Positions 2,125 through 53,023 of a DNA stretch of 64,000 bases are shown here, piece after piece. Location: positions 1-64,000 of IMG/VR virus record IMGVR_UViG_3300030098_004514; one strand, written 5' to 3'. Within the stretch, counting starts at the first letter, position 1. Every line of letters starts with the position of its first letter. This DNA is from a virus. Both the position numbers and the translations under genes were made by a program. The notes under the pieces were generated by a model that did not search any database, was not told where the DNA came from, and saw only the letters and a list, made by a program, of their open reading frames with translations.

Positions 2125-2714
2125 TGAAAAGTGTTTACAACTTTGTTGTAACACCAAAAGGAAAAAGATATAATAACACTAAAAAGGTTGGAGATTCAGA
2201 GTTGATACTTAACACTGAAATCTTCAACCATCAGTACACAAATAGAGAAGCTATTGTTATATCAACTCCGATTATTGGTGATACAGACATAAAGCCAGGG
2301 GATACAGTTATAGTACATCACAATGTATTTAGAAGATGGCATAATATTAGAGGTGAAGAAAAAAATAGTAAAAGTTTTTTTAATGAATCAACTTATCTTG
2401 TAAATAAAGATCAAATTTTTTTATACAAAACAAATAAAGAATGGATAGCACCAAAAGGATATTGTTTTATAAAACCTTTAAAAGCTGTAGATAACTTTAA
2501 TATTGAACAAGAAAAACCCTTACAAGGTATTGTTAAATATTCTGATGGTACAGTTGAAGTTGGTGATTTAGTTGGTTTTAAGCCAAATAGTAAATATGAG
2601 TTTATTATTAATAACGAAAGGCTATATCGAGTTTTATCTAATTTTATTACAATCAAATATGAATATCAAGGAGACGAAGAAGAATATAATCCAAGCTGGG
2701 CAAAAAGCAGTTGA
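2124..2714 (+). CDS. GroES/Cpn10-like co-chaperonin
   Basis: A 196-residue protein with a GTG start that overlaps the preceding TAG by one base. Residues about 109-185 follow the GroES order: GYCFIKPLKA (first strand), a variable loop, QGIVKYSD, VEVGDLVGF and LYRVLSNFITIKYE (closing strand). The N-terminal half repeats parts of this (IKPGDTVIVHHNVFRR and NKDQIFLYK), so the protein may contain two copies of the fold. Phage co-chaperonins such as T4 gp31 replace or help GroES in folding the capsid protein, which fits the place just before the packaging genes. The match is at the level of fold pattern. The ends overlap terS. Confidence 0.55.
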   Translation: MKSVYNFVVTPKGKRYNNTKKVGDSELILNTEIFNHQYTNREAIVISTPIIGDTDIKPGDTVIVHHNVFRRWHNIRGEEKNSKSFFNESTYLVNKDQIFLYKTNKEWIAPKGYCFIKPLKAVDNFNIEQEKPLQGIVKYSDGTVEVGDLVGFKPNSKYEFIINNERLYRVLSNFITIKYEYQGDEEEYNPSWAKSS

Positions 2715-2934
2715 TGAATTAATTAAAGTAGCGAAAGAACCTATTGTAGATTCAGATGATGATATATCAGCAGATAGATTAAAAAATGCCGCAGCTACTA
2801 AAAAACTAGCTATATTTGACGCATTTGAAATACTTAACAGAATTCAAGAAGAAGAACAACTACTCGAGGGAAAAACACCTGAAAAGAGAGAGGAAAAAGT
2901 CTTTAAGGGATTCGCAGAAGGCAGATCTAAGTAA
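2659..2934 (+). CDS. Terminase small subunit (probable)
   Basis: A 91-residue protein if it starts at the ATG at 2659 (MNIKETKKNIIQAGQKAVDEL). The open frame reaches further upstream, but those residues lie in the GroES-like gene and are hydrophobic and out of character. The chosen start still overlaps that gene by 56 bases. The protein is helical and charged, with the block ADRLKNAAATKKLAIFDAFE then ILNRIQEEE, as in small terminase subunits of Bacteroidetes phages. The stop overlaps the terL start by one base (TAATG). The role, recognising phage DNA for packaging, is inferred from position, size and resemblance. Confidence 0.55.
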   Translation: MNIKETKKNIIQAGQKAVDELIKVAKEPIVDSDDDISADRLKNAAATKKLAIFDAFEILNRIQEEEQLLEGKTPEKREEKVFKGFAEGRSK

Positions 2935-22856: not shown

Positions 22857-23237
22857 ATGGCAACTACACAAGCGACAGTATCATATGACTATTCATTAAA
22901 CACCTCTTTACAAATAGGAGACTTTTTATATTGTACGTGTGTAGTGAGCACAACTGATGGGTTTCACGTTAGCACGGCACCACCACTATTATTTGGTGAA
23001 GTAACTGAGATCACTGATACATATATAGGATTTTCATACACCTCTTTTGGTAATGGATTACCTGACTTAATACCTTGCAGCGGAGGTACTAGATTTTTAT
23101 CTTTTGGAAAAGACAAAGCTGTAAATGAAACATCATTAAAGGGCTATTATAATTCAGTTGCTTTTTTAAATGATGACAATAATAACGAAGCAGAATTGTT
23201 TATGGTTAATTCAGAAACAACGTTTAGTAGTAAATAA
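22857..23237 (+). CDS. Small putative virion protein
   Basis: A 126-residue beta-rich protein with no recognised family. Features are the segment LQIGDFLYCTCVVSTTDG and a Gly/Phe-rich middle (TYIGFSYTSFGNGLPDLIPC). Starting MATTQATVSYDYSLNTSL, it resembles in style the small MAT-starting virion proteins at 42244-43923, though I see no clear homology. It is followed by a 41-base gap with the repeated ATTAAATTAA leader before the enzyme cassette. Confidence 0.45.
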   Translation: MATTQATVSYDYSLNTSLQIGDFLYCTCVVSTTDGFHVSTAPPLLFGEVTEITDTYIGFSYTSFGNGLPDLIPCSGGTRFLSFGKDKAVNETSLKGYYNSVAFLNDDNNNEAELFMVNSETTFSSK

Positions 23238-23278
23238 ACAGCAAAAACTGTGACTATATTAAGTATAAATTAAATTAA

Positions 23279-23704
23279 ATGAACTTAATTATAGAAACTA
23301 GTAAAAAAGATTGGGAAAAATTTCTTAAAGAAAAAAATATTACAAAAAATCAAGTTGATTATTATTTAAAAAACATACTTGATACCCCTAGTTTTGACAC
23401 TAAAGCAGGTCAAGTTTTGAATATTGAAAACAATCAATATGAGAAAAGAATATCTACAATACATGGTTTTGGTATATTTGCAAAGAAAGACATTGATAAG
23501 GGCGAAACAATAGGTATAGCCATAGGTTTTATAAATGATAAAAAATATAGAAGTTATATAGGAAGATTTACAAATCACTCTAATAATAAAAATTGTGTTT
23601 TTGAACAGTGTGAATCTGGAAATGTTTTTGCGGTGTGTATAGCAAATATTAAAAAAGATCAAGAAATACTAGTTGACTATAGAGATCATTGGGAAAAGTT
23701 TTAA
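23279..23704 (+). CDS. SET-domain protein methyltransferase
   Basis: A 141-residue protein. Residues 61-134 carry the SET-domain landmarks in order: HGFGIFAKKDIDKGE (62-76), RFTNHSNNKNC (96-106, the RFxNHS/C cofactor motif of the pseudoknot) and IKKDQEILVDYRD (125-136, ending in the catalytic-type DY). SET enzymes transfer a methyl group from S-adenosylmethionine to lysine side chains. The first 55 residues are helical and would sit before the domain. It heads a run of three predicted modifying enzymes placed among structural genes. The substrate is unknown; a virion or host protein is possible. Confidence 0.75.
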   Translation: MNLIIETSKKDWEKFLKEKNITKNQVDYYLKNILDTPSFDTKAGQVLNIENNQYEKRISTIHGFGIFAKKDIDKGETIGIAIGFINDKKYRSYIGRFTNHSNNKNCVFEQCESGNVFAVCIANIKKDQEILVDYRDHWEKF

Positions 23705-23721
23705 ATTAAATTAAATTAAAC
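23704..23721 (+). repeat. Tandem TTAAA leader
   Basis: Tandem TTAAA units directly before the oxygenase ATG (ATTAAATTAAATTAAA). The same kind of ATTAAATTAA leader precedes 1638, 23279 and, on the minus strand, the H1-like gene (about 50435-50450). These leaders stand where other bacteria have a ribosome binding site. Confidence 0.45.
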
Positions 23722-24294
23722 ATGATATATCTTATAGATAATTTTTTAAACGATAATTTGTTTAAAAAAACAACACACTATTTAAATAGTAATAGTTATA
23801 TTGAACACGAAACACCTGGTAAAACTTTTTGGGTACAAGAGGCTAAACAGGAGTTTATTAATACTGTATTAAGTACTCTTGCTTTAAAAGAAAAATGTGA
23901 GTTGGAAAATATACTAGCATTTTTTAGGGTATCCACAGATACTATAGATACTGAATGGAGAATACATAGCGATGGTATTATAAATGGTCAAAAACCTGAA
24001 AGAGCTGTGGTTTTATATCTCTCACCTAAAAAGATGAAAGGGTTACATGGTACCGCGTTTTGGGATCACAAAGAATATGGGAAAAAACAACCAGGTAATA
24101 TTAGTGATAGAGATTTTGATGCGCTTTTATCAAAAGAATCTGGAGATTTAACTAAATGGGATTTAAACACTGTTTTAGGATACGAACAGAATAGATTAAT
24201 ATCATATCCAGCAAATTACTTTCATAGTAAGTATCCTAATAAAGCTTGGGAAGAAGGTAGGCAAGTATTTGTTATGTTTTATAAAACTAAATAA
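23722..24294 (+). CDS. 2-oxoglutarate/Fe(II) oxygenase
   Basis: A 190-residue double-stranded beta-helix enzyme. The iron-binding triad is visible as HSD (His82, Asp84) and His168 in SYPANYFHSK; Arg180 in EEGRQVFVMFY fits the 2-oxoglutarate-binding arginine. WRIHSDG and NRLISYPANYFH match phage and bacterial prolyl-hydroxylase-like oxygenases. Such enzymes hydroxylate proteins or small molecules, consuming O2 and 2-oxoglutarate. The leader carries four tandem TTAAA units. It lies between the SET and GNAT genes, so the three probably act on related targets. The substrate is unknown. Confidence 0.8.
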   Translation: MIYLIDNFLNDNLFKKTTHYLNSNSYIEHETPGKTFWVQEAKQEFINTVLSTLALKEKCELENILAFFRVSTDTIDTEWRIHSDGIINGQKPERAVVLYLSPKKMKGLHGTAFWDHKEYGKKQPGNISDRDFDALLSKESGDLTKWDLNTVLGYEQNRLISYPANYFHSKYPNKAWEEGRQVFVMFYKTK

Positions 24295-24296
24295 CT

Positions 24297-24707
24297 ATGG
24301 AAGATAAATTAGTATTTCGTCCATTAATAGATAGTGATTATGAAACTATATGTAGTTGGTGGAAATGGTGGAGATGGCCTATTTTACCAAAGGATTTTCT
24401 ACCTAACAACGGTAAAGGTGGTTTTATAGTAGAGAAAAATAGCGTACCTATTGTTTCATGTTATTTATATTTAACAAACTCTTCTGTGGCTATTTTTGAT
24501 TGGGTGGTATCAAATCCAGAATATAAAGAAAAAGATAGAAAAAAAGCGATTGAAAAGTTAATAAATGACACGGAGCTTTTTTGCAAAGATATAAACATAA
24601 AACATCTATTTAGTATAGGTAGAAATCAACACTTAATAAAAACACATGAAAAATTAGGATGGCATATAGATAAAAAGTCATCTTATGAATTAATTAAAAA
24701 AATATAA
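24297..24707 (+). CDS. GNAT-type acetyltransferase
   Basis: A 136-residue protein starting 2 bases after the oxygenase stop. The beginning LVFRPLIDSDYETICSWW is the usual first strand and helix of GNAT acetyltransferases. It continues with a central strand (VAIFDWVVSNPEYKEKDRKKAIEKL, in the place of the acetyl-CoA pyrophosphate loop and helix) and the late segment HLIKTHEKLGWHIDKKSSYE. The canonical R/QxxGxG/A loop is degenerate, so cofactor binding is less certain. Third gene of the modifying-enzyme cassette and followed one base later by the ejection proteins. Confidence 0.65.
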   Translation: MEDKLVFRPLIDSDYETICSWWKWWRWPILPKDFLPNNGKGGFIVEKNSVPIVSCYLYLTNSSVAIFDWVVSNPEYKEKDRKKAIEKLINDTELFCKDINIKHLFSIGRNQHLIKTHEKLGWHIDKKSSYELIKKI

Positions 24708-24708
24708 T

Positions 24709-25791
24709 ATGTCAGTAATAACAGGAGTGGTGGTAGCGGTGGGAGCTGCTTATATAGGTACGTCTATATATAATAGTTACAAAGCAGGTCAGGCTCACGA
24801 TGATGCTATGGAGATAGCAGAAGATAATCAAGTCCAACAAAACGAGATTGCAGAACAACAACTAGCTTTTCAAAAAGAAGAAGCTAAAAAACTTGAGGCT
24901 CAAAAAGATGTTTATAGAAGTATGGTGTTTAAAAATCCATATGCTGACGTAAAGAATTTTTATGCAGATATTCAAAATCCATTTAGAGATTTACAAACAG
25001 ATTTTGAAAATGTATACGAAGATTTAACTGTAAACCAACAACAAGCTGAGTTTCAAAGAGACACGATGGCCCAACAAAGAGCTAATATAATGGGTCAAAT
25101 GAGAGGTGCTGCTGGAGGAAGTGGTATTGCCGGTCTTGCTCAAGCTATGGCTAATCAAGGCCAGTTAGCCACACAACAAGTTTCAGCGTCAATAGGCCAA
25201 CAGGAGGCAATGAACCAAAGATTGAGAGCGCAGGGCGCTGCTCAAGTTCAAAGCATGGAAGCCCAGAGAGAACAGTTAATAGCTCAAGGCGCTTACCAGG
25301 CAGATATAACAAGAGCTAGAGGTGAGTCGGCTGCAGATATGGCTAGACGTGGTGGAGAAGCTAGTTTGCAAGAAATGGAAATGAGTAGACAAGCAACTTT
25401 ATTAGGTATTCAGATGGGGCAAACAACAGGCGCTAACCAAGCTTTACAGCAAGCTTATGCAAACCAAATGATGGCAGGGGCAGGCATGGCCAACTTAATG
25501 GGACAGCAATCCGCTTCTTTATATGGTTTAGCTGGTTCATATGCGCAGGCTGGTGGACAAATGATAGGTAGTGCGGCTTCTGATAGGAGATTAAAGAAAA
25601 ATATAAATAAAATTGGTGAATCATCTAGCGGGTTAAATATATATAGTTTCGAATTTAAAGATTCTAAATATGGCGAAGGTGTGTTTCAAGGCGTAATGTC
25701 TGATGAGATACCACAAAAGTTTGTTAGAACTATAAATGGTTACGATATAGTAGATTATAGCATGTTAGATGTAGAATTTAAACAAATATAA
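24709..25791 (+). CDS. Internal virion/ejection protein with S74 chaperone-like tail
   Basis: A 360-residue protein. Residues 4-24 are a hydrophobic glycine-rich stretch (ITGVVVAVGAAYIGTSIYNSY); residues 30-285 are Gln/Ala/Glu-rich helix with glycine-rich repeats, as in podovirus ejection proteins such as T7 gp14. Residues 291-360 begin SDRRLKKNINKIGESSSGL and go on with the VFQGVMSDEIP block, the signature of the Peptidase S74 intramolecular chaperone domain, here short and at the very end. The protein probably sits inside the capsid and enters the host envelope with the DNA. It is the first of three ejection genes packed with 2- and 7-base gaps. Confidence 0.65.
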   Translation: MSVITGVVVAVGAAYIGTSIYNSYKAGQAHDDAMEIAEDNQVQQNEIAEQQLAFQKEEAKKLEAQKDVYRSMVFKNPYADVKNFYADIQNPFRDLQTDFENVYEDLTVNQQQAEFQRDTMAQQRANIMGQMRGAAGGSGIAGLAQAMANQGQLATQQVSASIGQQEAMNQRLRAQGAAQVQSMEAQREQLIAQGAYQADITRARGESAADMARRGGEASLQEMEMSRQATLLGIQMGQTTGANQALQQAYANQMMAGAGMANLMGQQSASLYGLAGSYAQAGGQMIGSAASDRRLKKNINKIGESSSGLNIYSFEFKDSKYGEGVFQGVMSDEIPQKFVRTINGYDIVDYSMLDVEFKQI

Positions 25792-25793
25792 AT

Positions 25794-27533
25794 ATGGCAA
25801 AGGGATATGGGGCAGATCCAACTTTAGTATCAGCGGCGTATAGATTAGGACAATCTTATGGACCTGCTGATTATACAAAGATTTTTGAATATCAATACGA
25901 AGGCTTATCAGAAGCGATTAAGGCTAAATATGAATCTTATGAAACAATGGTTAAGGCAAGTGCTGACATGGTAACCGACGTCTATGAAGGTTTAGAAAAA
26001 AAGATGGGGGAAAGGGATAAGGAGAGTGCGGAAACATTGACCGAGACTGGTAAAGTTTTAACTGGTGATTCAACATTTGATTATTTAAGTGAGGGTCAAA
26101 ACTTTAATAAAGCTATGAATGAATTATCAACTAATTACACTGATGGTGTAATCACAGATAATAAAGATAATTATTCCACAAGTAATCCAAATATAACAAA
26201 CAAAGCAGAGTTTAAAAGAGATAAAGAACAGTTTTTAGCGTACAAAGAGACAATAGAAGAATATAGTGGTAAATTATATCTCACTAAAAATCAAAAAGAA
26301 AAAAGAGATGACGCTATTAAAGCTACCTTAAAACTTAGAGAAACCATGAATAAACATAGAGGGATGATTAATAGTAAAGGAATAGCTTGGAATAGTGGTT
26401 TTATAGATAAACAACATTCGTTTGAAAACGATCCTGATTTAATGTTTTTGTCTGGTAAGGTTTTGGAAAAAGATGGAGACATGTCGAAAGCTGGAGTAAG
26501 TACTTTTTATGGACAAGATGGTCATATTTATTATAAATATCCAGTTGGTATGGCTAACCCAATACTTAAAGAGATACAAACTAAAGCTAAAGAACTTGAA
26601 AATATTTCTTTAAATCTAGACACTCCAACCGCAGAAGAATTAGCTAAAAAAGGAGGTGAGATGATGACTGGTAAAAAAGAAATTGGTTTAGAAGTGCCAA
26701 AGCTTAAAACAAAAGAACTAGAACTACCAACATCGAAAGAATACAAAATTATTAGAGCAGATAAGTTATTTGCCGGTTTACAAGAGGTTGATAATGCAAC
26801 TAGAAACACTTTAGAAGCCGAAACTGCTAACATTATTAATTTAGCCCAAGAAACAATGACGGCTACTGATGGAAAAACCAAAGTTGCTTCTATAGAAAAC
26901 TATAATAAAATTTCTAAAAAAACAGAAAACAATATAAAAAACCAGCTGTTAAAATCTACTAATTATCGAAACATAACAAATAATCCTGTATTAATATCTG
27001 GTGAAGAAATTAATTGGGATGAGGATTTGAGTGAGAATATAGAGATAGACATGGCGGTTATAAATCAAGATTTTATTGGAAGTAATGTCCTTACTTTAGA
27101 TCAATTGAAAAACTGGGATGAAGATAAATCAGGAACATTAGATCAAGATGAGCTTAACAAGCATGAGGAGGCTAAAAAAATGCTTATTGATAAACTGCTA
27201 AATCCAATAACACAACAAGAAAAAGAAGTTTCTGTAAATGAGTTTGCTAAATATATAAATGGTTATATGAAACAGGTTTTTGATCAAACTAGAGAAAGAA
27301 TGGATATAGAATCTAGTGAAAAAGGATTAAACACTAGATTGGTAAAAGCTATAGAGTCTGGACAAAAAAACATTACTATTGGTAGAGAAAGATTTGAGTT
27401 ACAAGGTGGTAAATATAAGTTGGTACAGGTATTACCACAAGGTTCTCCTACGTGGGTTGATTTTGGAGAGGACGTGTCTTACTCTGTAGACGAGTTTATA
27501 CAAGATTATGGTAAACGTTTTAAAGCAAAATAA
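25794..27533 (+). CDS. Ejection-type internal virion protein with EF-hand motif
   Basis: A 579-residue, largely helical and charged protein between two ejection proteins. Residues 442-453 (DEDKSGTLDQDE) fit the EF-hand calcium loop at every ligand position: D1, D3, S5, G6, L8, D9 and E12. Whether a full helix-loop-helix pair exists is unclear, since only one loop is visible. No membrane segment is obvious. Calcium binding could stabilise the virion or sense the extracellular medium. Assignment as an ejection protein is from position and composition. Confidence 0.5.
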   Translation: MAKGYGADPTLVSAAYRLGQSYGPADYTKIFEYQYEGLSEAIKAKYESYETMVKASADMVTDVYEGLEKKMGERDKESAETLTETGKVLTGDSTFDYLSEGQNFNKAMNELSTNYTDGVITDNKDNYSTSNPNITNKAEFKRDKEQFLAYKETIEEYSGKLYLTKNQKEKRDDAIKATLKLRETMNKHRGMINSKGIAWNSGFIDKQHSFENDPDLMFLSGKVLEKDGDMSKAGVSTFYGQDGHIYYKYPVGMANPILKEIQTKAKELENISLNLDTPTAEELAKKGGEMMTGKKEIGLEVPKLKTKELELPTSKEYKIIRADKLFAGLQEVDNATRNTLEAETANIINLAQETMTATDGKTKVASIENYNKISKKTENNIKNQLLKSTNYRNITNNPVLISGEEINWDEDLSENIEIDMAVINQDFIGSNVLTLDQLKNWDEDKSGTLDQDELNKHEEAKKMLIDKLLNPITQQEKEVSVNEFAKYINGYMKQVFDQTRERMDIESSEKGLNTRLVKAIESGQKNITIGRERFELQGGKYKLVQVLPQGSPTWVDFGEDVSYSVDEFIQDYGKRFKAK

Positions 27534-27540
27534 ATAAAAT

Positions 27541-30500
27541 ATGCTTGAAGATATATTAGATGAAAATTTAGAACAAGAAAATATTCTTGAAACCGGAACT
27601 GATGTTACTGGAGATAATTTATTGCTTGAAGAAGAAGAGACTGAAGAAAACAAGTATAAAATTAAAACAGATAAAGATGGTAAGAAAACTGCTTTCCAAT
27701 GGAAAACCGTTGCCGATATAGAAGAAGAACAATTTGGTACTAGAAATACTGATCCAGAATGGGTTAAAGAACAAGCGGCTAAAAAAAGAGAAGAAAATAA
27801 ATTTGTTGTATATCATAAATTTACATCTGGAGATGATCCTGAGGTAGAACCTGAAACTAGTGATTACTCACCTTCTTTAATAAAACCAATAAAGCGAAAT
27901 TTTAAAGATGGAGAGTGGAGTGTTGGTAAATACCTTGATGAAGATGATAATATTGAAAATAAAATTATAAAAGGAGAACCTTATCATTATAACGGTATAA
28001 CCACTGTGGAGTATGAAGATGGTACGACACAGCATTTTAAAACAGAAGATTATCAAGCTAGAACAAAAGACACTGAAATATTGGGTGTTGAAAAAGATGA
28101 TGTAACTGGAGAAGTGCTACTAAAAGGCGGTAGTGAAAAGTGGAAGGTGGGAGGAGAAACGCTTATGACGCTACCTGACGTTCAAATTACAGACATTAGA
28201 ACAACAGAAAATCTTGCTAATTTGAAAAAAAGATCATACGCGCCTATAACTAAAGACGAAATAAATAATGCCGCTGAAGAGTGGGAACAAGGTTCTATTT
28301 TTACTGGCAACGAAGAAGAGTCTATTAATCAAGCAACAAAACTATTTGGAGGTTTAGGGATAACCTTTGAACCGGGCACTCATACTGGTGATAATTATAT
28401 TAAAGTAAGATTACCAAATGATGAGTTATTAGATTGGTCATTAAAAGTTGGTGGAGATAAAGAACAATCAATAGAGCAATATAAAAAACTTACAGAAAAT
28501 TTAACAAAAAACCACCTTCATAAACTAGAGCGTTTTAAGTATATTAATCCAACTGATTATGATAAACAGTATATATTTAAAAATGCTAATTTAAATCTAA
28601 ATGAGGTAGTTAACTATGACGAGGATAGTTACGAAGATTGGTTGAATCAATTACTACCAAATTCTCAATTTTTAGGCGAGCAAAGAGGAGCGGGTGATGC
28701 TTATAAATATGCGATACCTAATATTGGTAGCGACGGCAAAGTAAAAACAACAAACTTTGATGTAAATTTACAACCAAATATAGATATAACAGGTGATATA
28801 GCAAGAGCGGCTTTTGGTGGTGGTGAAAACACTGTTATTCAATACGGTATAGTACCAGCTCTTAAATATGCAGAGTGGAGACATGCTAATCCTCGAAGAG
28901 CTGCTGTTTATACAGATTGGACACCAAATCAGGGTAGCGATGGACCTATCTCAAGTGGCGAAACAGTTAGAGAGATAAAAAACTTGTCTACTCTTAATAA
29001 TGTATATAAAGAAGCTGTTGGGATGGAAATTTTAAGTACTGGGTCATTTCCACCTACTTATGTTGTTAAAAAAGACGGTAAAGAAATATTTAGAGGTAGC
29101 AGTGTGTATTCTACTGCGGGTGTTGATAGTTATGTTTCAACAGACGGTGAAGTAAAAAATTATAGAAACAACATACAAGATTTTATGACCAATTATGATT
29201 GGTCTGCTGAAGAACTTCAAGCTTTAAGTTTAGCTAGAAGTAATGCTGTAAAAAAAGTAGAGGGTAATAGAAATAAAACCAACTTTGATTTAGCATACGA
29301 TAGGGAAAGTGAGTATACAAACCTAGCCGCTGCAAATAATTATACAGAAACAGAAGCCCTACCTATTCACGAAAAAGCAATAGATAACGCTGAGCAAGAT
29401 TTAATAAAGGAAGGTATAGAAAAGTTTGGTATAATTGATGACGAAGGTAATATAACACAACATGGAAGCTACTCAGCTACTGGAGAACTTTTAGGTGAAA
29501 ACGCTAAGAAACTTATTGAAAAACACGGTGGAAAACTAGAGTTTAGCGAAGAATTAGAAGCTTATGTATTTAGTACTGAAACTGATGATCCAAAAGTACG
29601 TAAAGAGTTTACTGAAATGTCTAAAGCTTTAAATGGTTGGTATCACCAGTATTCACAACAACTTAATTTACATAGAGATGCTTTAACCGATATACAAGAC
29701 AGAAGATTAGGCCTTCAAGATCTTTACGATGCTTCTGAAAAGAAGACGACTGCTTTGATGAGAAATTACAACCCAGGTGCTAAAATGGCTTATGGTTGGC
29801 AGAAAAGTTGGAAGCAACTTGGTTATAATATTGTTGGACTTGTTGCTCCTAGCGTTACTAAAGACGCGTCTGAAGAGTTAGATAAAAGATACCAAACAAT
29901 GTTTGCGCCACAACTTACTTTTGATCGCGCTATGGAAGAAGATAGATTTTGGGAATACGCTGGTAATGTTACTACTGAAAACGGCGCTATTACAACTCTA
30001 AGTATACTTACCGCTGGGGCTGGTTCACTTTTAAACGTTGGTGCGAGAACTATACAATGGACAATTGGTGGTATTGCTGGTGTTAGTGCTGGTGGGCAAA
30101 AAAATATTGAATTAGCAAATATAGCTGATGAAATTAAAAATATAGAGGATAATTTATTACCGCAACTAGATCAACTTTTAGCAGATGAAAAAATAACTCA
30201 AGCTCAATATGACGAAAAAAGAACAGAATTAGAAAACTTTATAGATGATAATACGTATAGCGCTCTTCAAAGAACTACTTCGGTTTTAGGTGCCACCATT
30301 TTAGAGGGTACCGTAACAGCGACAATGGGTGCTAGAAACTATACTAAATTTGGTGAAAATGTTCTTAACCCTACTAAAAACTTTGTTAAAGATCTAACTA
30401 GGGGTAATTGGAGAGCGGCTGGAAGAGCTTTAAAACAAACGGGTGGTGGTGTAGGCTTAGAAGTAGGTGAAGAAGAACTTATATATTTTGGAGACGCTTT

Positions 30501-33500
30501 AATGGATTGGAAGATTCTTGATAGAAAATTCGACATTAGTCAATACGAAAAAGTCGGAATAGATGCTGCTATTGTAGCTGGCCCAATGGTAGGTAGTGGG
30601 GCAACGTACTCCACTGTTATGACTCAAGTTGCTAATAAAGATATTAGAAACGAAATTAACGATGTAAAAAATAATCTTTCAGATATACAAAAAAGATTTA
30701 GAAAGCTAAAACGCACTGACATAGATTACGAAAAAGAAAAGAAAATGTTGATGCGTAAAAAGCAAGAGCAATTTGATAGATTAGGATTAAAGATCGATGA
30801 GGTGGAGCTTATGAGTATGTCTTTAGATCCTAAAGATTTAGACATGGTTCTTTCTTCTGGTTTTATACTTGATAACTTGAATCTTCAAGCTGGTATAGAC
30901 CCACGTTTTGACAATAATAAGAAGAATCAGCTTTTAAAAAAATACGTTGGAACATTAAGTAAAGACAAGGCAAAAAACTTTATGGAAAAGTATAATAACG
31001 CTATTAACGCTAAAAAATCTGCTTTACGTAAAATGGGTGGTTTTGATCTTACCGTAAAAAGAGTTTATGGTGAGCAAGCCCAAACAATATTAGATGATTT
31101 AATAAAAACAAACCCAACATTAAAAGACGCTGATTCTAAAGAAAAAGCCTTAGCTATCCATAAAGAGTTTAAAAAAAGATTAAATGATAGTTATATAAAT
31201 AAAGCTAGAGCAAATCCGTATGTTGTGGATATGGTACAAAGAAAAATTTACGGAAGTAAATACGATCCAAATAAAAAGGGGAAAATACGTTATAAAACAA
31301 AAGCAACTATTCAAGCTGAAAATGATTTATATTCTCATATAGGTAAACAAATATCTATGGATATAGATAAAGCTATTGTTATATCCAAAGAAGAAGGTAG
31401 ATTGGCTTCAGAAGTACTTAGAGATATTAGATTAAAAGACCTTAATTTAACAGTGGCTCCAGATGATGGTGTATTACAAGAAGAGGTTATGCAAGCTTAT
31501 GATGACATGGCTCAACAAGATATTGATAGATTAAAAAAGAAAAATATTTCTAAAGAAGAAATGGAATCATTGTCGGGAATAATTAAAGCTAGACGTGATG
31601 CTGAAGCTCAACAACATATTGATGCTCTTAGAAACAACGAATTAAACGCTATAATTGTTGGTGGTAAATATATAGTTAAAGATAAAAAAGCTGCTGATAA
31701 AGCTCTTGAGCAAGGATATTTATTAGCTGGTACCGCTATATCACATGAAGTTGGTCATGCTATAGATTACTTAGCGTTTGATGAAGCTGGTGTTACAAAT
31801 TACGGAAAAAATCTTCATAATTACATGGAGAAAAACTTTCCTGAAATACATGCTGAAGCGCAAAGAATTCAAGCTGTAATTGGTAACTTTGACGCTACAA
31901 ACGGTGAAATGCCTAGAGGAGAAAATAAATATTATGATGAATACAGTAAAGAAGTTCAGAGTCAATTTATATTGAATAAAAAAGATAAGAACAAACTATA
32001 CAAATTGTCTTCTAACGTAAAGGGTTCTTTTGGCGCTATGATTGATAGATTTACAGAAAAAGGTGAGGGTTTTAGAATAGACAATGATAGAGACGCTGCT
32101 ATGTATCTATCTAGTTTTTTAAAAGGATTTGAGAATGGTGAAATAGGTAAACTACAAAAAAGAAGAATAGATTATAGAAAAAGACGTGGTATAAAAAGAG
32201 AAGATACGGAAACTAAGAAGTCGTCTAACTTACAAACTATGTTAGATACAGATTATGATGGTAATGTTAGAAAAATGGGTAGAGATGCTATCTCTGTTGA
32301 TCCTCAAGGTAAAAAACTAGAAGGTAAACAAGCTTTTGATTTAATGAATTCTAAATTAGGTCAAGATATAGGACCTATGGTTACCGATATAACAAAAAAG
32401 TTATATGATCCTATAATTGATAAAGGTGAGTTAACCAGGCAAGAATATCAAAATGCTTTAATAGGTATAGCTTCAGAAATAATTAGAACTGAAAATTTTG
32501 ATCCAACAAAACAAGATTTAGACAAATTTGTTAGTAGTAGATTATATTTTAGAGCTAATGCTTTGGCTAAACAATTAGGCGTGCCGCAAGAGTTTTTAAA
32601 AGATATAGATAATATAACTGATCCAACGGTAGATCCAGACGAAGATATAGATATAGCATTGGATGAAGAAGCTAGAATATTAAATGATTTTGATATAGCT
32701 CTTGAAGATGGTTTAGTTGATGCTGAAATTACTGCTGAAGTAGAATCTTTAATAGAACAAAATCCAGTTGATTTAGAAAAACGTATGGAAAAACTTATAC
32801 TAGGTGATATACGTAAAAAACTTGACAACGCTATTGGTAAAATTGCTAAAAATAAAGAAACTGGAATTGTTGAACCAACAGCAGAGTATGAGACATTTAT
32901 TAGAGATGAATTTAACGAAATAATAAGTAGTTTAGATATAAAAACAATAAGAACATCTTACAAACCATTTTTTAAACAAGAAAAAACAGGTAGAAAAGAT
33001 TATAAAAACATAGATCCTGTAACTGGTAAGGTTAGTAATTATAGAAAAGATACTTTTATAAACACCGCTAGTAAACCAGATTTTATAAAATATTTTACAC
33101 AAGGTAAACCAAATGTTTTAAGAGAAAGAAGAACAGGTTTAATAAGGCGTATATCTAAAAGAAAAGCTGATATAGCTATAGATAACTATATAGAAAGAAA
33201 TTCTAATAACATTGATGCGGTAGTAAAAGCAAAACTTAGATCAATAAGTAGAACTGCTGAAAATATACAAGACGAACAAACAAGTTTTGACTCTGTAAAA
33301 TACAGCACACAAGTAGAGACTCGTATTAATGATTACATGAAAGATGAGGTGGATGGTAAACGAAGGTTTGCTAATAGAGGACAAGCCTTAGAGCAAGTTA
33401 TAATAGACATGCTTAGTGAGTATGGTTTCCCTGTTGAAAGATTAAAATTAAGAGTAAGCACTCAAACAGAACAAGGTGGATTAGCTGATATAAATCTAGA

Positions 33501-36500
33501 GGTATTTGGAGAGCCTTTTAACATAGAGGTTAAACTAGATGAAAAAGTACCTATGGGTAGTGTTCTGGTTTCTAATTATGATTTAAATTACCGTAATTTT
33601 ACTTTAGCAAAAAGCGCTATTAGATTACCTTTTAGAGATATGTTAGACATGGTTCACGATGATATAGTTAACCTTAAAAACGTATACAACGAAAAAGTAG
33701 AAGCTTACAATAAGAAGAATGGTACTAACGAACCATTAATGTCTGACAATCCTATTGGTCATCGTATGGTTGAATCTATATACAACGAATTAGTTAAGGA
33801 AAAAGTAACAGGTGCGATTTTTAGTAATAGTACATTTACTAGTCCCAACGCGCAACCTTTAATCGATCATTACCAAGGTAAAACTAACGTTGTTGGCAAG
33901 GGTAAAAATAAAAAAACTATATCAGCGCCAGTTGATGCTATAGAAATATTCGGCATGGGACTATATTCTTTTGTTCCAAACTCTCCTCTTGGTACAAACG
34001 CCCCTTATATATTAAACATGGCTAGAGTGCAAACAGGTATAAGGGTAATGAACTCTGGTAGAATAAAAAGCAAGGGCAAAGTGGTTACTAACAAAGCTGG
34101 CGATGGGTATATAAGATTTAGTTTACAGTTTCAAAATACATTAACTGATCTTAAGGCTCCAAAAAATCCTATTAGTCTTACTAGACAGCAAGATATGACA
34201 CCTATTTTTGGCGCACCAGTAAAACAAAATCTAATGCCAGAAGTTACTTTAGCGTCTAAAAACGCTAGAACAACTAAAAAATATCATATCAATCCAAGAG
34301 GTATGAGTACTTTTGATTTTGATGAAACGTTGATTATAGAAGGTAAAAACTTTATAGTTGCTAAAGACCCGATCACTGGTGAAGAAACAAAGATAAGTAG
34401 TGGTAATTGGCCTTTAGAAGGACCTAAACTAGCAGAGCAGGGTTATACTTTTGATTTTAATGATTTTGTAAACGTAAGAGGTGGTGTTGATGGACCATTA
34501 TTACAAAAAATGAAAAACCAAATAAGTAAGTTTGGACCTGAAAACGTTTTTGTTTTAACAGCAAGACCACAGGCTAGCGCGCCAGCAATTCACGGTTGGT
34601 TAGATTCTAAAGGCATTAATATACCTTTTAAAAATATAACTGGTTTAGCTAATAGTACTGGAGACGCTAAAGCTGAATGGATGTTACAAAAGTTTGCCGA
34701 AGGATATAACGATATGTATTTTGTTGACGATGCTTTACCTAATGTTGAAGCCGTTAAAAGTGCTTTAGAACAATTAGATATTAAATCTGATGTGCAACAA
34801 GCTAGAGTTAAATTTAGCAAACAATTAGATCCTACTTTTAACAAGATACTTGAAGAAGTTGTGGGTATTGATGCTGATAAAAGATTTTCTGCTATAAAAG
34901 CTAGAAAACGTGGTGAAAAGAAAGGTAGGTTTAGATTTTTTGTACCACCATCACACGAGGATTTTGGAGGTTTATTGTACAACTTTTTGGGTAAAGGTAA
35001 AAAAGGTAATGAACATAGAGCTTTTTTTGAAGAAGCTTTAATAAGACCATTAAATAGGGGTTATAGAGAGTTAGATATAGCTAGACAGTCTATAGCTAAT
35101 GATTATAAAGCTTTAAATAAAAACTTTCCAGAAATTAAAAATATCTTAAATGAAAAAATACCGGGTAGTGATTTTACAAATCAAGATGCTATAAGAATAT
35201 ATTTATGGAATAAACACGGTTATAACATTCCTGGGCTAAGTAAGGTTGATCAAAAGAAACTAACTGAACATGTCAAGTCAGATGAAGAAATGCAATCTTA
35301 TGCCGAGACATTAAACACAATATCAAAGCAAGAAACATATGTAAATCCTACTGAAGGATGGGATAGTGGAGATATAAGAATGGATTTAGATGATGCTACT
35401 GGAAGAGTTGGTAGAGCTGAGTTTTTTAGTGAGTTTACTGAAAACGCAGAAGAAATATTTTCTGAACAAAATTTAAATAAGATTGAAGCAGGTTATGGTA
35501 AAGACGTTAGAAGTGCTTTAGAAGATATGCTGTATAGGATTGGTACTGGTAAAAATAGACCAAAAGGACAAAGCGCAACAGTAAATAGATTTATGAACTT
35601 TTTAAATGGTTCTGTTGGGTCTGTTATGTTTTTAAACATGAGATCTGCTTTGTTACAGCAAATGTCTATTGTAAATTATATAAACTTTGCCGATAATAAT
35701 ATATTTGCAGCTGCTAAAGCTTTTGCAAATCAAAAGCAATATTGGACTGACTGGGCGTATATATTTAACTCTGACATGCTAAAACAAAGACGTGGCGGAA
35801 TTAAAACAGATGTTAATGGTGCTGAGCTTGCTGAAACTATTAGTAAATCAAGGTTTCCAATGAGAAGCTTAGTGAGAGAATTGCTGCAACTCGGATTTAA
35901 ACCTACACAAATTGGTGATAGTATAGCGATCGCAACTGGTGGCGCGACATATTATAGAAATAGAATTAATAGATATCAAAAACAAGGACTAAGTAGAAAG
36001 GATGCTACGGAAAAAGCTTGGAATGATTTTCAAGATACTACTCAATCCACCCAACAGTCATCTAGACCTGACATGGTATCTCAACAACAAAGCTCTTGGA
36101 AAGGTAAAATAATATTAAACTTCCAAAATATTACATCACAATATAATAGATTTGGTAAAAAAGCAATGAGTGACATTTATAATAGAAGAATATCACCTCC
36201 TTACACAACACAACTACAAAGTGACATTGGTAATGCTTCTAAAATAGCTTTTTATTTTGGAATACAAAATATGATTTTTTACAGTTTACAAACAGCGTTG
36301 TTTGCCATGATGTTTGAAGACGATGAAAACGAAGAAAGATGGTTGAAGAAAAAAGAAAGAGTTATCAATGGTAGTATTGATTCGATATTACGTGGAAGTG
36401 GAATAGGTGGAGCTGTTTTGTCTACTTTAAAAAATATGGCTATTAAATTTGCTGAGCAAAGAGGGAAAGGTTATAATCCAGATGAAAGTGCTGTATTAAT

Positions 36501-37191
36501 GGAAATGTTAAACTTTTCACCAGTAGTTGGTATTAAAGCTAGAAAAATAACAAACGCTGAAAAAACATTATTTTATAATAAAAATGTTATAAAAGAAATG
36601 GACACCTTTGATATTGACAATCCTATGTGGTCTGCTTATACAAACTATATAGAGGCTGGAACAAATTTACCTCTTAATAGATTATATAACAAAACACAAA
36701 ATGTAAGACAAGCTTTAAATAACGAGCATGAGGCGTGGAAAAGGGTTATGATGTCGTTTGGATGGAGTCAATATAATCTAGGTATTCAAGATGATACTAT
36801 TAAGGAAGTAAAAGAAACTATAAAGCGAAAGAAAAAGATACAAAAAGACAAAGAAAGAGAGCAAAAAAAAGAGGCTAAAATAAAAGAAAAATATCCTAAT
36901 CTTAATAAAAAAGAAATACAAGTTAAATTAAAAAGTAAGGAAATGTTTAGTTTAAGTAAAGGAGAGCAATATTTTATATTAAAACAACTAGGTCTTTCTG
37001 AAACACAAATTCTTAATCTTAAAAAAGAACAAAACAGAGCTGATAAAATAGCTGAGTTATATGAAAAAAATCAAAAGTTGATTGATGATTTTATGAAAAA
37101 TCCAAAATCTATGGAAATAAAAAAACAAAAAGGATTTGGTGATGGTAAATATAAAAGAAAAACATATACTAGAAAATCATATACTAGATAG
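27541..37191 (+). CDS. 3216-aa polyvalent ejection protein: peptidase, nuclease, HAD
   Basis: A giant protein of the kind injected by podoviruses. Visible modules: hydrophobic glycine-rich stretch about 818-850; zinc peptidase motif HEVGH (1402-1406) in GTAISHEVGHAIDYL, with a downstream EYSKEVQSQF that could give the third ligand; a PD-(D/E)XK nuclease with Glu1951, Asp1983 and EVK (1996-1998); a HAD domain with DFDET (2259-2263), VLTARP (2338-2343) and VDDALPN (2395-2401); a hydrophobic segment about 2902-2926; and a basic coiled tail 3055-3216. The residues match the catalytic ones of each family. It is the last and largest of three consecutive ejection genes. The joint presence of three enzyme folds marks it as a polyvalent protein. 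Confidence 0.75.
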   Translation: MLEDILDENLEQENILETGTDVTGDNLLLEEEETEENKYKIKTDKDGKKTAFQWKTVADIEEEQFGTRNTDPEWVKEQAAKKREENKFVVYHKFTSGDDPEVEPETSDYSPSLIKPIKRNFKDGEWSVGKYLDEDDNIENKIIKGEPYHYNGITTVEYEDGTTQHFKTEDYQARTKDTEILGVEKDDVTGEVLLKGGSEKWKVGGETLMTLPDVQITDIRTTENLANLKKRSYAPITKDEINNAAEEWEQGSIFTGNEEESINQATKLFGGLGITFEPGTHTGDNYIKVRLPNDELLDWSLKVGGDKEQSIEQYKKLTENLTKNHLHKLERFKYINPTDYDKQYIFKNANLNLNEVVNYDEDSYEDWLNQLLPNSQFLGEQRGAGDAYKYAIPNIGSDGKVKTTNFDVNLQPNIDITGDIARAAFGGGENTVIQYGIVPALKYAEWRHANPRRAAVYTDWTPNQGSDGPISSGETVREIKNLSTLNNVYKEAVGMEILSTGSFPPTYVVKKDGKEIFRGSSVYSTAGVDSYVSTDGEVKNYRNNIQDFMTNYDWSAEELQALSLARSNAVKKVEGNRNKTNFDLAYDRESEYTNLAAANNYTETEALPIHEKAIDNAEQDLIKEGIEKFGIIDDEGNITQHGSYSATGELLGENAKKLIEKHGGKLEFSEELEAYVFSTETDDPKVRKEFTEMSKALNGWYHQYSQQLNLHRDALTDIQDRRLGLQDLYDASEKKTTALMRNYNPGAKMAYGWQKSWKQLGYNIVGLVAPSVTKDASEELDKRYQTMFAPQLTFDRAMEEDRFWEYAGNVTTENGAITTLSILTAGAGSLLNVGARTIQWTIGGIAGVSAGGQKNIELANIADEIKNIEDNLLPQLDQLLADEKITQAQYDEKRTELENFIDDNTYSALQRTTSVLGATILEGTVTATMGARNYTKFGENVLNPTKNFVKDLTRGNWRAAGRALKQTGGGVGLEVGEEELIYFGDALMDWKILDRKFDISQYEKVGIDAAIVAGPMVGSGATYSTVMTQVANKDIRNEINDVKNNLSDIQKRFRKLKRTDIDYEKEKKMLMRKKQEQFDRLGLKIDEVELMSMSLDPKDLDMVLSSGFILDNLNLQAGIDPRFDNNKKNQLLKKYVGTLSKDKAKNFMEKYNNAINAKKSALRKMGGFDLTVKRVYGEQAQTILDDLIKTNPTLKDADSKEKALAIHKEFKKRLNDSYINKARANPYVVDMVQRKIYGSKYDPNKKGKIRYKTKATIQAENDLYSHIGKQISMDIDKAIVISKEEGRLASEVLRDIRLKDLNLTVAPDDGVLQEEVMQAYDDMAQQDIDRLKKKNISKEEMESLSGIIKARRDAEAQQHIDALRNNELNAIIVGGKYIVKDKKAADKALEQGYLLAGTAISHEVGHAIDYLAFDEAGVTNYGKNLHNYMEKNFPEIHAEAQRIQAVIGNFDATNGEMPRGENKYYDEYSKEVQSQFILNKKDKNKLYKLSSNVKGSFGAMIDRFTEKGEGFRIDNDRDAAMYLSSFLKGFENGEIGKLQKRRIDYRKRRGIKREDTETKKSSNLQTMLDTDYDGNVRKMGRDAISVDPQGKKLEGKQAFDLMNSKLGQDIGPMVTDITKKLYDPIIDKGELTRQEYQNALIGIASEIIRTENFDPTKQDLDKFVSSRLYFRANALAKQLGVPQEFLKDIDNITDPTVDPDEDIDIALDEEARILNDFDIALEDGLVDAEITAEVESLIEQNPVDLEKRMEKLILGDIRKKLDNAIGKIAKNKETGIVEPTAEYETFIRDEFNEIISSLDIKTIRTSYKPFFKQEKTGRKDYKNIDPVTGKVSNYRKDTFINTASKPDFIKYFTQGKPNVLRERRTGLIRRISKRKADIAIDNYIERNSNNIDAVVKAKLRSISRTAENIQDEQTSFDSVKYSTQVETRINDYMKDEVDGKRRFANRGQALEQVIIDMLSEYGFPVERLKLRVSTQTEQGGLADINLEVFGEPFNIEVKLDEKVPMGSVLVSNYDLNYRNFTLAKSAIRLPFRDMLDMVHDDIVNLKNVYNEKVEAYNKKNGTNEPLMSDNPIGHRMVESIYNELVKEKVTGAIFSNSTFTSPNAQPLIDHYQGKTNVVGKGKNKKTISAPVDAIEIFGMGLYSFVPNSPLGTNAPYILNMARVQTGIRVMNSGRIKSKGKVVTNKAGDGYIRFSLQFQNTLTDLKAPKNPISLTRQQDMTPIFGAPVKQNLMPEVTLASKNARTTKKYHINPRGMSTFDFDETLIIEGKNFIVAKDPITGEETKISSGNWPLEGPKLAEQGYTFDFNDFVNVRGGVDGPLLQKMKNQISKFGPENVFVLTARPQASAPAIHGWLDSKGINIPFKNITGLANSTGDAKAEWMLQKFAEGYNDMYFVDDALPNVEAVKSALEQLDIKSDVQQARVKFSKQLDPTFNKILEEVVGIDADKRFSAIKARKRGEKKGRFRFFVPPSHEDFGGLLYNFLGKGKKGNEHRAFFEEALIRPLNRGYRELDIARQSIANDYKALNKNFPEIKNILNEKIPGSDFTNQDAIRIYLWNKHGYNIPGLSKVDQKKLTEHVKSDEEMQSYAETLNTISKQETYVNPTEGWDSGDIRMDLDDATGRVGRAEFFSEFTENAEEIFSEQNLNKIEAGYGKDVRSALEDMLYRIGTGKNRPKGQSATVNRFMNFLNGSVGSVMFLNMRSALLQQMSIVNYINFADNNIFAAAKAFANQKQYWTDWAYIFNSDMLKQRRGGIKTDVNGAELAETISKSRFPMRSLVRELLQLGFKPTQIGDSIAIATGGATYYRNRINRYQKQGLSRKDATEKAWNDFQDTTQSTQQSSRPDMVSQQQSSWKGKIILNFQNITSQYNRFGKKAMSDIYNRRISPPYTTQLQSDIGNASKIAFYFGIQNMIFYSLQTALFAMMFEDDENEERWLKKKERVINGSIDSILRGSGIGGAVLSTLKNMAIKFAEQRGKGYNPDESAVLMEMLNFSPVVGIKARKITNAEKTLFYNKNVIKEMDTFDIDNPMWSAYTNYIEAGTNLPLNRLYNKTQNVRQALNNEHEAWKRVMMSFGWSQYNLGIQDDTIKEVKETIKRKKKIQKDKEREQKKEAKIKEKYPNLNKKEIQVKLKSKEMFSLSKGEQYFILKQLGLSETQILNLKKEQNRADKIAELYEKNQKLIDDFMKNPKSMEIKKQKGFGDGKYKRKTYTRKSYTR

Positions 37192-51155: not shown

Positions 51156-51914
51156 TTATAGGCTTGTTATTTCGCAGACTCCACCGGCACAAGCCAATTC
51201 ACCCGATAGATCTGTTTCGTCAGTTGTTTCAACAATATTAGATAAATTCACATCGTTTAAGAGTTTGACTCTCTTATTGAACTCTCTTTCTGTTATATCT
51301 TCAAACGGAGCTTGAGTATAGGTTCCGCCATCATAAGGTAATACAGATAAACCATTATAGCACTCTCTATTTTCCCACATCCATTTACCAGCTTTATTCC
51401 ATTCGTCTTCTTTCAAACTAATTGTTGCAGACACGTTGTGGGTGTTGGATCCTTTACGGTGCCCAGGTTTAACCCATTCAGTTGCAACTTTTTTAACTCT
51501 TTTTAATAAGTCGAAAGCAGACTCAGTTCTTAATATAGAACCTTTTGGCGCTGATTGTGGTATTTCAATAACAGCAGTGTCATGTGGTCTAAAGTATTCA
51601 TCCTGTACTAAGTCAGGATTGTTTTCTTTTAAATATCTATATATAGGTTCATTCTTGCCTACACGTAATCTTCTGATATAAAAGTCATTATGCCAAGCGT
51701 GTATACCTGAAGACGTGCCAAGTACTAACGAAGTTGTTCCAGCGGGTTTAACACATGTTGTTCTTGCTGCTTTGTTTATTCCTATTAACTTCGCTACTCT
51801 TGTATTTTCTCTTTTTACTATACTTGCAGCTGCCTTCATATCCAGCGGGAGCACAGCGGCACTCGCGATTCCTGTCATTGACACACCTATAAGCGCGTCT
51901 TTCTCTGTTGCCAT
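51156..51914 (-). CDS. Ribonucleotide reductase, C-terminal part
   Basis: The 252-residue second part of the reductase. It opens TEKDALIGVSMTGIAS right after its ATG, which in intact class II reductases follows directly on the end of the first part. The phosphate-binding loop PAGTTSLVLGTSSGIH (about 57-72) is present, as is the C-terminal redox pair C-A-G-G-V-C near the end (residues about 243-248). Its start overlaps the first part by 28 bases in the -1 frame. Either the enzyme is made as two chains, or a single-base error or mutation splits one gene. See the first part at 51887. Confidence 0.75.
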   Translation of the reverse strand: MATEKDALIGVSMTGIASAAVLPLDMKAAASIVKRENTRVAKLIGINKAARTTCVKPAGTTSLVLGTSSGIHAWHNDFYIRRLRVGKNEPIYRYLKENNPDLVQDEYFRPHDTAVIEIPQSAPKGSILRTESAFDLLKRVKKVATEWVKPGHRKGSNTHNVSATISLKEDEWNKAGKWMWENRECYNGLSVLPYDGGTYTQAPFEDITEREFNKRVKLLNDVNLSNIVETTDETDLSGELACAGGVCEITSL

Positions 51915-53023
51915 ATTTCTCTTAGATAGTGGAATTCCGTATAACCTGCTTGAAGCGTGCCAATAAAAGCTGCGGCTTTAACGCGGGCGTTAAGGTCTTC
52001 TTGGTCTGTGACGTCACTTACATTAACTTCACACAGGTTACAGAACTGATAAGGTCTTAAAGCTATTTCGCAACACGGATTAGTTCCCCAATCTTTATCA
52101 TGGTTAAAATAGATACCTGGTTCACCAGCTCCGGATAATTCAATACGTTTCCACAAATCTAAGAAAAATTCCTTTGTTATTTTATGTCTCATTAATACAG
52201 CAGAGTTATTAGCTCTACCTCTTTGTGGGTTCTTTTCCCACCAACTTCCTGATTTACACGAAATCATTTCTTCATCATATGCTGAGAATAAACTTATTAA
52301 AGCAGCTCTTCTAATACCGCCTGCAAGTACAGCGTCAGCAATATGACAAATAATATCGTGTACTTCGAGGGTCGATAATTTTGTTCCATCTTCTTTCGCA
52401 TCTAATATTCCTTTAATTTTTACTAAACATTCTTTTAATGGTTGTGGCCCTGGAGCTTTTCCCCCTGAAGTCACAAGCCTTGCACCCTTTGGCCTAATAT
52501 CCGAATAATCAAATTTTATCTTAGATGATCTCTTATTGCCTAAATAAGACTTAATTAAAACTTTTATTGAATCAGACCAACCTTCAATACTATCACCTAT
52601 AACAAACCTTCTAGTTCTACCTTGGAAAGGTTTTGTTATGCAGGGAAGTAAATTAGTATGGTGTTTTTGCACTGAATAACCAACCCCACAACCAGAGAGA
52701 AGAAGAAACATGCATTCACTAAAGCTATCAACATGATCAATAGGTAAGTAAGAACAGTTGTATAATCTATTCGGACTAATTTCAATTGGTTTGCCACTAA
52801 ATTGTAACGAGCGCATACTTGGCAATACTTTTTTATCATAGACATATTTATAATTTAATTGTATTTGATCAGATAATTCCGGATATCTTTTTTGATGCAT
52901 CTCTTTGTTTCTAGTAACTAGCTCTTCCCAAGTCTCTCTTCTATTTAATTCAGGAATGTATTTAGCGTATTTCATATGCACGGTTAAATCAGATAATATT
53001 TTTTTATTTAAATCGCTAATCAT
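51887..53023 (-). CDS. nrdJ: Ribonucleotide reductase, N-terminal catalytic part (class II-type)
   Basis: The 378-residue first part reduces ribonucleotides to deoxynucleotides. Active-site residues are present: Cys90 in YNCSYL, the N-P-C-C-E loop at 315-319 with the thiyl Cys and Glu, and Cys328 in CNLCEVN. WGTNPCCEI fits class II (adenosylcobalamin-dependent) phage enzymes, and no nrdB-like small subunit is found in the window. The frame ends ten codons after HYLREIW, where a -1 shift would join the downstream part. Cofactor class is inferred. Confidence 0.75.
   Translation of the reverse strand: MISDLNKKILSDLTVHMKYAKYIPELNRRETWEELVTRNKEMHQKRYPELSDQIQLNYKYVYDKKVLPSMRSLQFSGKPIEISPNRLYNCSYLPIDHVDSFSECMFLLLSGCGVGYSVQKHHTNLLPCITKPFQGRTRRFVIGDSIEGWSDSIKVLIKSYLGNKRSSKIKFDYSDIRPKGARLVTSGGKAPGPQPLKECLVKIKGILDAKEDGTKLSTLEVHDIICHIADAVLAGGIRRAALISLFSAYDEEMISCKSGSWWEKNPQRGRANNSAVLMRHKITKEFFLDLWKRIELSGAGEPGIYFNHDKDWGTNPCCEIALRPYQFCNLCEVNVSDVTDQEDLNARVKAAAFIGTLQAGYTEFHYLREIWQQRKTRL

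Follow-up and report, generated by a model that had tools for sequence, protein, structure and literature searches.

SET-domain methyltransferases are chiefly known from eukaryotes and the viruses infecting them, and from intracellular bacteria. A small viral SET domain comparable to the one described here is vSET (A612L) of the chlorovirus PBCV-1, a histone H3K27 methyltransferase. The SET protein of the present locus differs from vSET by an extra N-terminal linker and by its setting in a module of virion genes, and its phage presumably infects a bacterium, which would lack histones of the eukaryotic type. Among phage proteins, the cupin-SET protein gp49 of Pseudoalteromonas phage PH1 (PHROG 34170) has a linker+SET half homologous to our SET protein, and its gene lies directly before an ejection gene. 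PH1 gp49 is fused to a cupin, whereas the SET protein studied here stands alone with a separate 2-oxoglutarate (2OG) oxygenase neighbor. 2OG-Fe(II) oxygenases of marine phages (cyanophages) are widespread viral enzymes with no known substrate and have been discussed in terms of nitrogen/2OG modulation or DNA repair (PMC3037559), whereas the 2OG genes considered here lie beside a SET gene or the terminase gene. A phage GNAT, pc40 of Cobavirus/SIO1, has already been equated with T7 gp13 (PMC6775973); it likewise lies beside internal virion proteins, the likeness being one of position, and belongs to a different phage family. Each of the SET, 2OG and GNAT folds is already known. The literature, in which subscription papers were covered in part, yielded no description of phage SET enzymes or of lysine methylation in phage virions, and no paper that links a phage SET family to genes for ejection, terminase or baseplate proteins or that describes a SET-2OG pair.

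The DNA analyzed was a stretch of 64,000 bases (the window), corresponding to positions 1 to 64,000 of the 71,276-base virus record IMGVR_UViG_3300030098_004514. Its source is a marine bacteriophage of a flavobacterial podovirus family; the terminase, the portal and one virion protein were assigned to PHROGs 6681, 6547 and 13704, respectively, and the nearest named phages were a Manatee Spring podovirus, the Flavobacterium elemo phages and Cellulophaga podoviruses. The sequence-only reading had described three adjacent genes for SET, 2OG and GNAT proteins with gaps of 2 to 17 bases, placed between tail and ejection genes, and the ORF coordinates agreed with this description. The genes for the SET protein (23279-23704, plus strand, 141 aa), the 2OG protein (23722-24294, plus strand, 190 aa) and the GNAT-fold protein (24297-24707, plus strand, 136 aa) were separated by 17 and 2 bases, and the next gene followed after 1 base. 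Upstream were tail genes, including one for a giant 2457-aa tail/muzzle protein with a C-terminal crassvirus muzzle domain (crAss_MUZ_C), and a gene for a small tail-module protein (22857-23237, plus strand), which lies directly before the GNAT gene in the relatives L021-L025. The three genes downstream, all on the plus strand, were inferred from gene order and N-termini to encode gp14/15/16-type ejection proteins. The probable gp14-like internal virion protein (24709-25791) was assigned by order, its N-terminus and a match to phrog_6121 (virion structural, 2.3e-5), the probable gp15-like one (25794-27533) by order, and the giant 3216-aa probable gp16-like ejection/cargo protein (27541-37191) by order and by the conservation of a giant gene in relatives. 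The genes at the gp14-like position in the elemo phages and MW202828 matched phrog_13764, also virion structural.

Several further features of the window were observed. The SET gene had on both sides an AT-rich direct repeat of 18 bases (23266-23283 and 23702-23719; 94% identity), possibly an insertion scar or a repeated ribosome-binding context. Rfam and terminator scans of the region gave no matches. In the 3216-aa protein, a zincin motif (HEVGH) and an HAD-like motif (FDFDETL) were noticed by eye, with Pfam silent. The ribonucleotide reductase was encoded by two overlapping ORFs on the minus strand (51156-51914 and 51887-53023), where L030-L032 have a single ORF of approximately 622 aa; a frameshift, a split gene and an assembly error are the alternatives.

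The SET protein of the window matched Pfam PF00856 with an E-value of 3.8e-10 (40.6 bits; curated cut-off 22.4), and the motifs HGFG, RFTNHS and LVDY pointed out in the sequence-only reading were read directly in it. The SAM site (GxG and NHS) and the catalytic tyrosine of the ExxxDY motif were present. Its family profile matched PBCV-1 vSET (E 2.3e-6, approximately 105 residues) as well as MLL-type enzymes, and the solved structures matched were mostly histone methyltransferases. In 135 phage SETs, the residues G63, G65, N99, H100, N105, E129 and Y134 were conserved at nearly 100%, a value partly built in for N99, H100 and part of the E..DY motif, which were included in the search patterns. 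On these profiles and motifs, the protein is a genuine SET domain with intact cofactor residues, predicted to be a SAM-dependent protein-lysine methyltransferase.

For the 2OG protein, a DUF6445-like protein matching phrog_1644 at 3.3e-12, no curated Pfam family was above the cut-off (DUF6445 22.6 versus 24). The AlphaFold model (pLDDT 80) displayed a double-stranded beta-helix fold, and the Foldseek matches listed were all 2OG oxygenases, including OGFOD1 (E 1.1e-5), PHD2 and P4H. The proposed iron and 2-oxoglutarate set was borne out by an alignment with 8 relatives, in which HxD (H82, D84), H168 and R180 were invariant. The modeled fold and the aligned site, in place of a curated family, identify the protein as a genuine 2OG-oxygenase fold with intact cofactor residues. 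As the SAM and iron/2OG residues are intact, both the SET and 2OG proteins look catalytic. It was also noted that PHROG 1644 is named minor coat protein, a name that may mislead annotation.

A first impression that the SET gene was unique to the window was overturned by profile searches. A profile built from the window SET plus its closest relatives, used together with earlier scans, identified 33 contigs, all from this phage family, that carry a SET gene between a GroES-like gene and the terminase gene, the terminases being mostly 64-67% identical. A gene of approximately 100 aa separated SET from the terminase in nearly all of them; the equivalent small gene of the window (2572-2934, plus strand) also precedes the terminase. 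A 2OG gene was located directly 5' of SET in 21 of the 33 contigs and in 4 of the 7 SET clusters, counts drawn from related, not independent, metagenomic contigs and from clusters related to one another. SET and 2OG are a recurrent adjacent pair in the relatives. Either gene was also often found singly, as 12 of the 33 SET contigs had no adjacent 2OG gene, and the nearest homologues of the window 2OG protein (55%, in L026 and L027) occupied the terminase slot without SET. The dN/dS ratios of SET and 2OG in diverged pairs were approximately 0.1-0.35, with pairwise dN well below dS, by which measure both genes are under purifying selection.

The terminase slot of the window contained neither SET nor 2OG, and both genes adjoin the GNAT gene instead. 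The window SET grouped with the terminase-slot SETs with clade support of 99/98, and relocation of the pair from that slot is the simplest reading, the direction of the move being deduced. The order was 2OG-SET in the relatives versus SET-2OG in the window, and the SET-adjacent 2OG protein of the relatives (PF13640 at 0.001, below the cut-off) was a distant homologue of that in the window, forming a second, distant 2OG subfamily. Given the inverted order and the different subfamilies, two separate gains are possible, and the pair need not have moved in one step. The supposed co-conservation of all three genes did not hold, as none of the relatives examined had the trio together, and the candidate of a conserved SET/2OG/GNAT cassette was rejected. 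SET was found in none of the 21 relatives searched, and 2OG was present in 9 of these 21, elsewhere in the genome where mapped. In the five relatives having both SET and GNAT, the two genes were 17-21 kb apart.

The GNAT gene (PHROG 17252) is a fixed core gene of the flavobacterial podovirus family, separate from SET and 2OG. In those GNAT-selected IMG/VR relatives with a readable next gene, as in MW202828 and the elemo phages, the tail genes came first, then GNAT, then the gp14-like gene, and this neighborhood matched the T7 gene order 12-13-14-15-16. The GNAT-like fold proposed in the earlier reading was upheld by an AlphaFold model (pLDDT 90), for which the Foldseek hits listed were all GNAT enzymes (E 3.5e-6, TM approximately 0.7), and by phage proteins in BFVD that share this shape and are more closely related. 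Pfam gave no hit for the protein itself and a weak Acetyltransf_1 match in 3 of 14 relatives. The acetyl-CoA loop, in contrast to the fold and to the intact cofactor sites of SET and 2OG, was degenerate: the aligned columns, on which this statement rests, read NPEYKEKD[RK]x in all 14 members instead of the canonical [Q/R]xxGx[G/A], and the corresponding search pattern also matched T7 gp13, L022 and L023 outside the loop or loosely at it. The lack of the canonical loop makes the third chemistry doubtful. T7 gp13 (PF11090), a probable scaffold, shares the gene order (tail, gp13, gp14, gp15, gp16) and the size (138 versus 136 aa). PF11090 had no Pfam match in the window protein or its relatives, and the profile-profile match to T7 gp13 (hhalign) was collinear but weak (P 0.013, probability 3%); homology to gp13 at the sequence level was not demonstrated. 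The protein is probably a non-canonical GNAT serving as an assembly factor like T7 gp13, not an acetyltransferase.

Scans with SET alignments detected at least 469 and at least 486 related loci, while a scan of genome contigs with the family SET alignment gave 4 distant matches only. Among the matches listed, phage SETs took three forms, which were cupin+SET of approximately 285 aa (95 loci), stand-alone linker+SET of approximately 130 aa, and short SET of approximately 97 aa. Among the same matches, 73 of 94 cupin-SET loci had a member of the DNA-ejection family phrog_598 as the next gene, and among the other 21 many next genes had a similar N-terminus by eye; after the short cyanophage-type SETs, the next gene encoded the baseplate wedge gp25 in 25 of 50 loci. 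Some short SETs had a primase/helicase-like gene, not a virion gene, as neighbor, so that the association with virion genes is strong but not universal. The cupin half of cupin-SET was annotated as short tail fiber or tail fiber adhesin. A fusion in swapped order (L177, 7995-8831) and separate neighboring genes (L233, 276-1277) indicated that SET and cupin are modular partners. In L197 (2345-3016) and L245 (2703-3374), a SET with a C-terminal extension was found between genes for a 677-aa probable portal and a 358-aa acidic scaffold-like protein. In podovirus zth2-2 (L081, 4977-6975), cupin-SET was accompanied by small gp14-like genes with a GNAT gene just downstream, and in L160 a GNAT gene lay directly before cupin-SET; in these unrelated podoviruses, GNAT and SET have repeatedly ended up in the same slot near ejection genes.

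The reading we favor, if tentatively and at slightly less than even confidence, is that this podovirus family carries, within its virion-structural region, a recurrent pair of enzymes, SET and 2OG, that modify proteins, with the GNAT-fold protein as a separate assembly factor. The pair, usually between the GroES-like gene and the terminase gene and in the window beside GNAT, immediately ahead of the ejection genes, would be expressed with the late genes. SET would methylate lysines on an assembly or ejected protein of the phage, and 2OG would hydroxylate or oxidatively demethylate the same or a neighboring client protein. Such marks may tune assembly, the unfolding required for ejection, or recognition inside the host, while the GNAT-fold protein would work in assembly as T7 gp13 may. 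The frequent location of phage SETs beside ejection or packaging genes supports the idea that the phage modifies its own particle proteins, and particle or assembly proteins are the likely substrates. It is unlikely, though worth weighing, that the two enzymes are instead directed at host proteins such as ribosomal proteins, RNA polymerase or nucleoid proteins, the virion-gene location reflecting late expression only. The best structural match of the 2OG protein, OGFOD1, is a ribosomal-protein hydroxylase, and the histone methyltransferases among the SET matches point the same way. The phage GNAT Rac is cited as attacking host RNA polymerase (PMC10504331). A host target fits less well with the way SETs in unrelated phages tend to sit immediately ahead of genes for ejection, terminase or baseplate proteins; this preference, like the fusion of SET to a cupin annotated as a tail protein, points to particle assembly.

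That cupin annotation and the position in a structural module would equally suit a non-catalytic SET reusing the fold as a virion or assembly component, a reading we regard as improbable in view of the almost invariant SAM site and catalytic tyrosine in the 135 phage SETs, even with the part of this conservation that the search patterns built in. SET and 2OG may also be unrelated hitch-hiking morons in the same permissive gaps, their adjacency being functionally meaningless; the sporadic occurrence of each gene and the repeat around SET are in keeping with this, but both genes are under purifying selection and SET is accompanied by a different 2OG subfamily at each of two sites, which leaves this reading with a low probability. 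The dedicated three-enzyme modification system first proposed from the sequence could draw on the genomes G020, G026, G027 and G031, which have SET with adjacent 2OG plus GNAT, and on the GNAT genes flanking cupin-SET in zth2-2 and L160. The trio is adjacent in the window only, GNAT is a core gene usually without SET, and its acetyl-CoA loop is degenerate; three chemistries acting as one system are accordingly not supported, and we consider this reading very improbable. A wider extension of the favored SET-2OG pairing, which we put forward as speculative and rather unlikely as a whole, is that phages across unrelated lineages use SETs to methylate their own ejection, portal or baseplate proteins, and that a dedicated 2OG here acts on the same substrate, in a two-enzyme protein-marking step of particle assembly.

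A large phage SET family with a preference for sites near ejection, terminase and baseplate genes, here joined by a 2OG protein, would turn lysine methylation of phage particles into an idea open to direct testing, cultured cupin-SET phages being available in Rhodoferax phage P26218 and Pseudoalteromonas phage PH1. For this flavobacterial podovirus family, the GNAT-fold protein at the gp13 position gains a likely reading as an assembly factor, not an enzyme.
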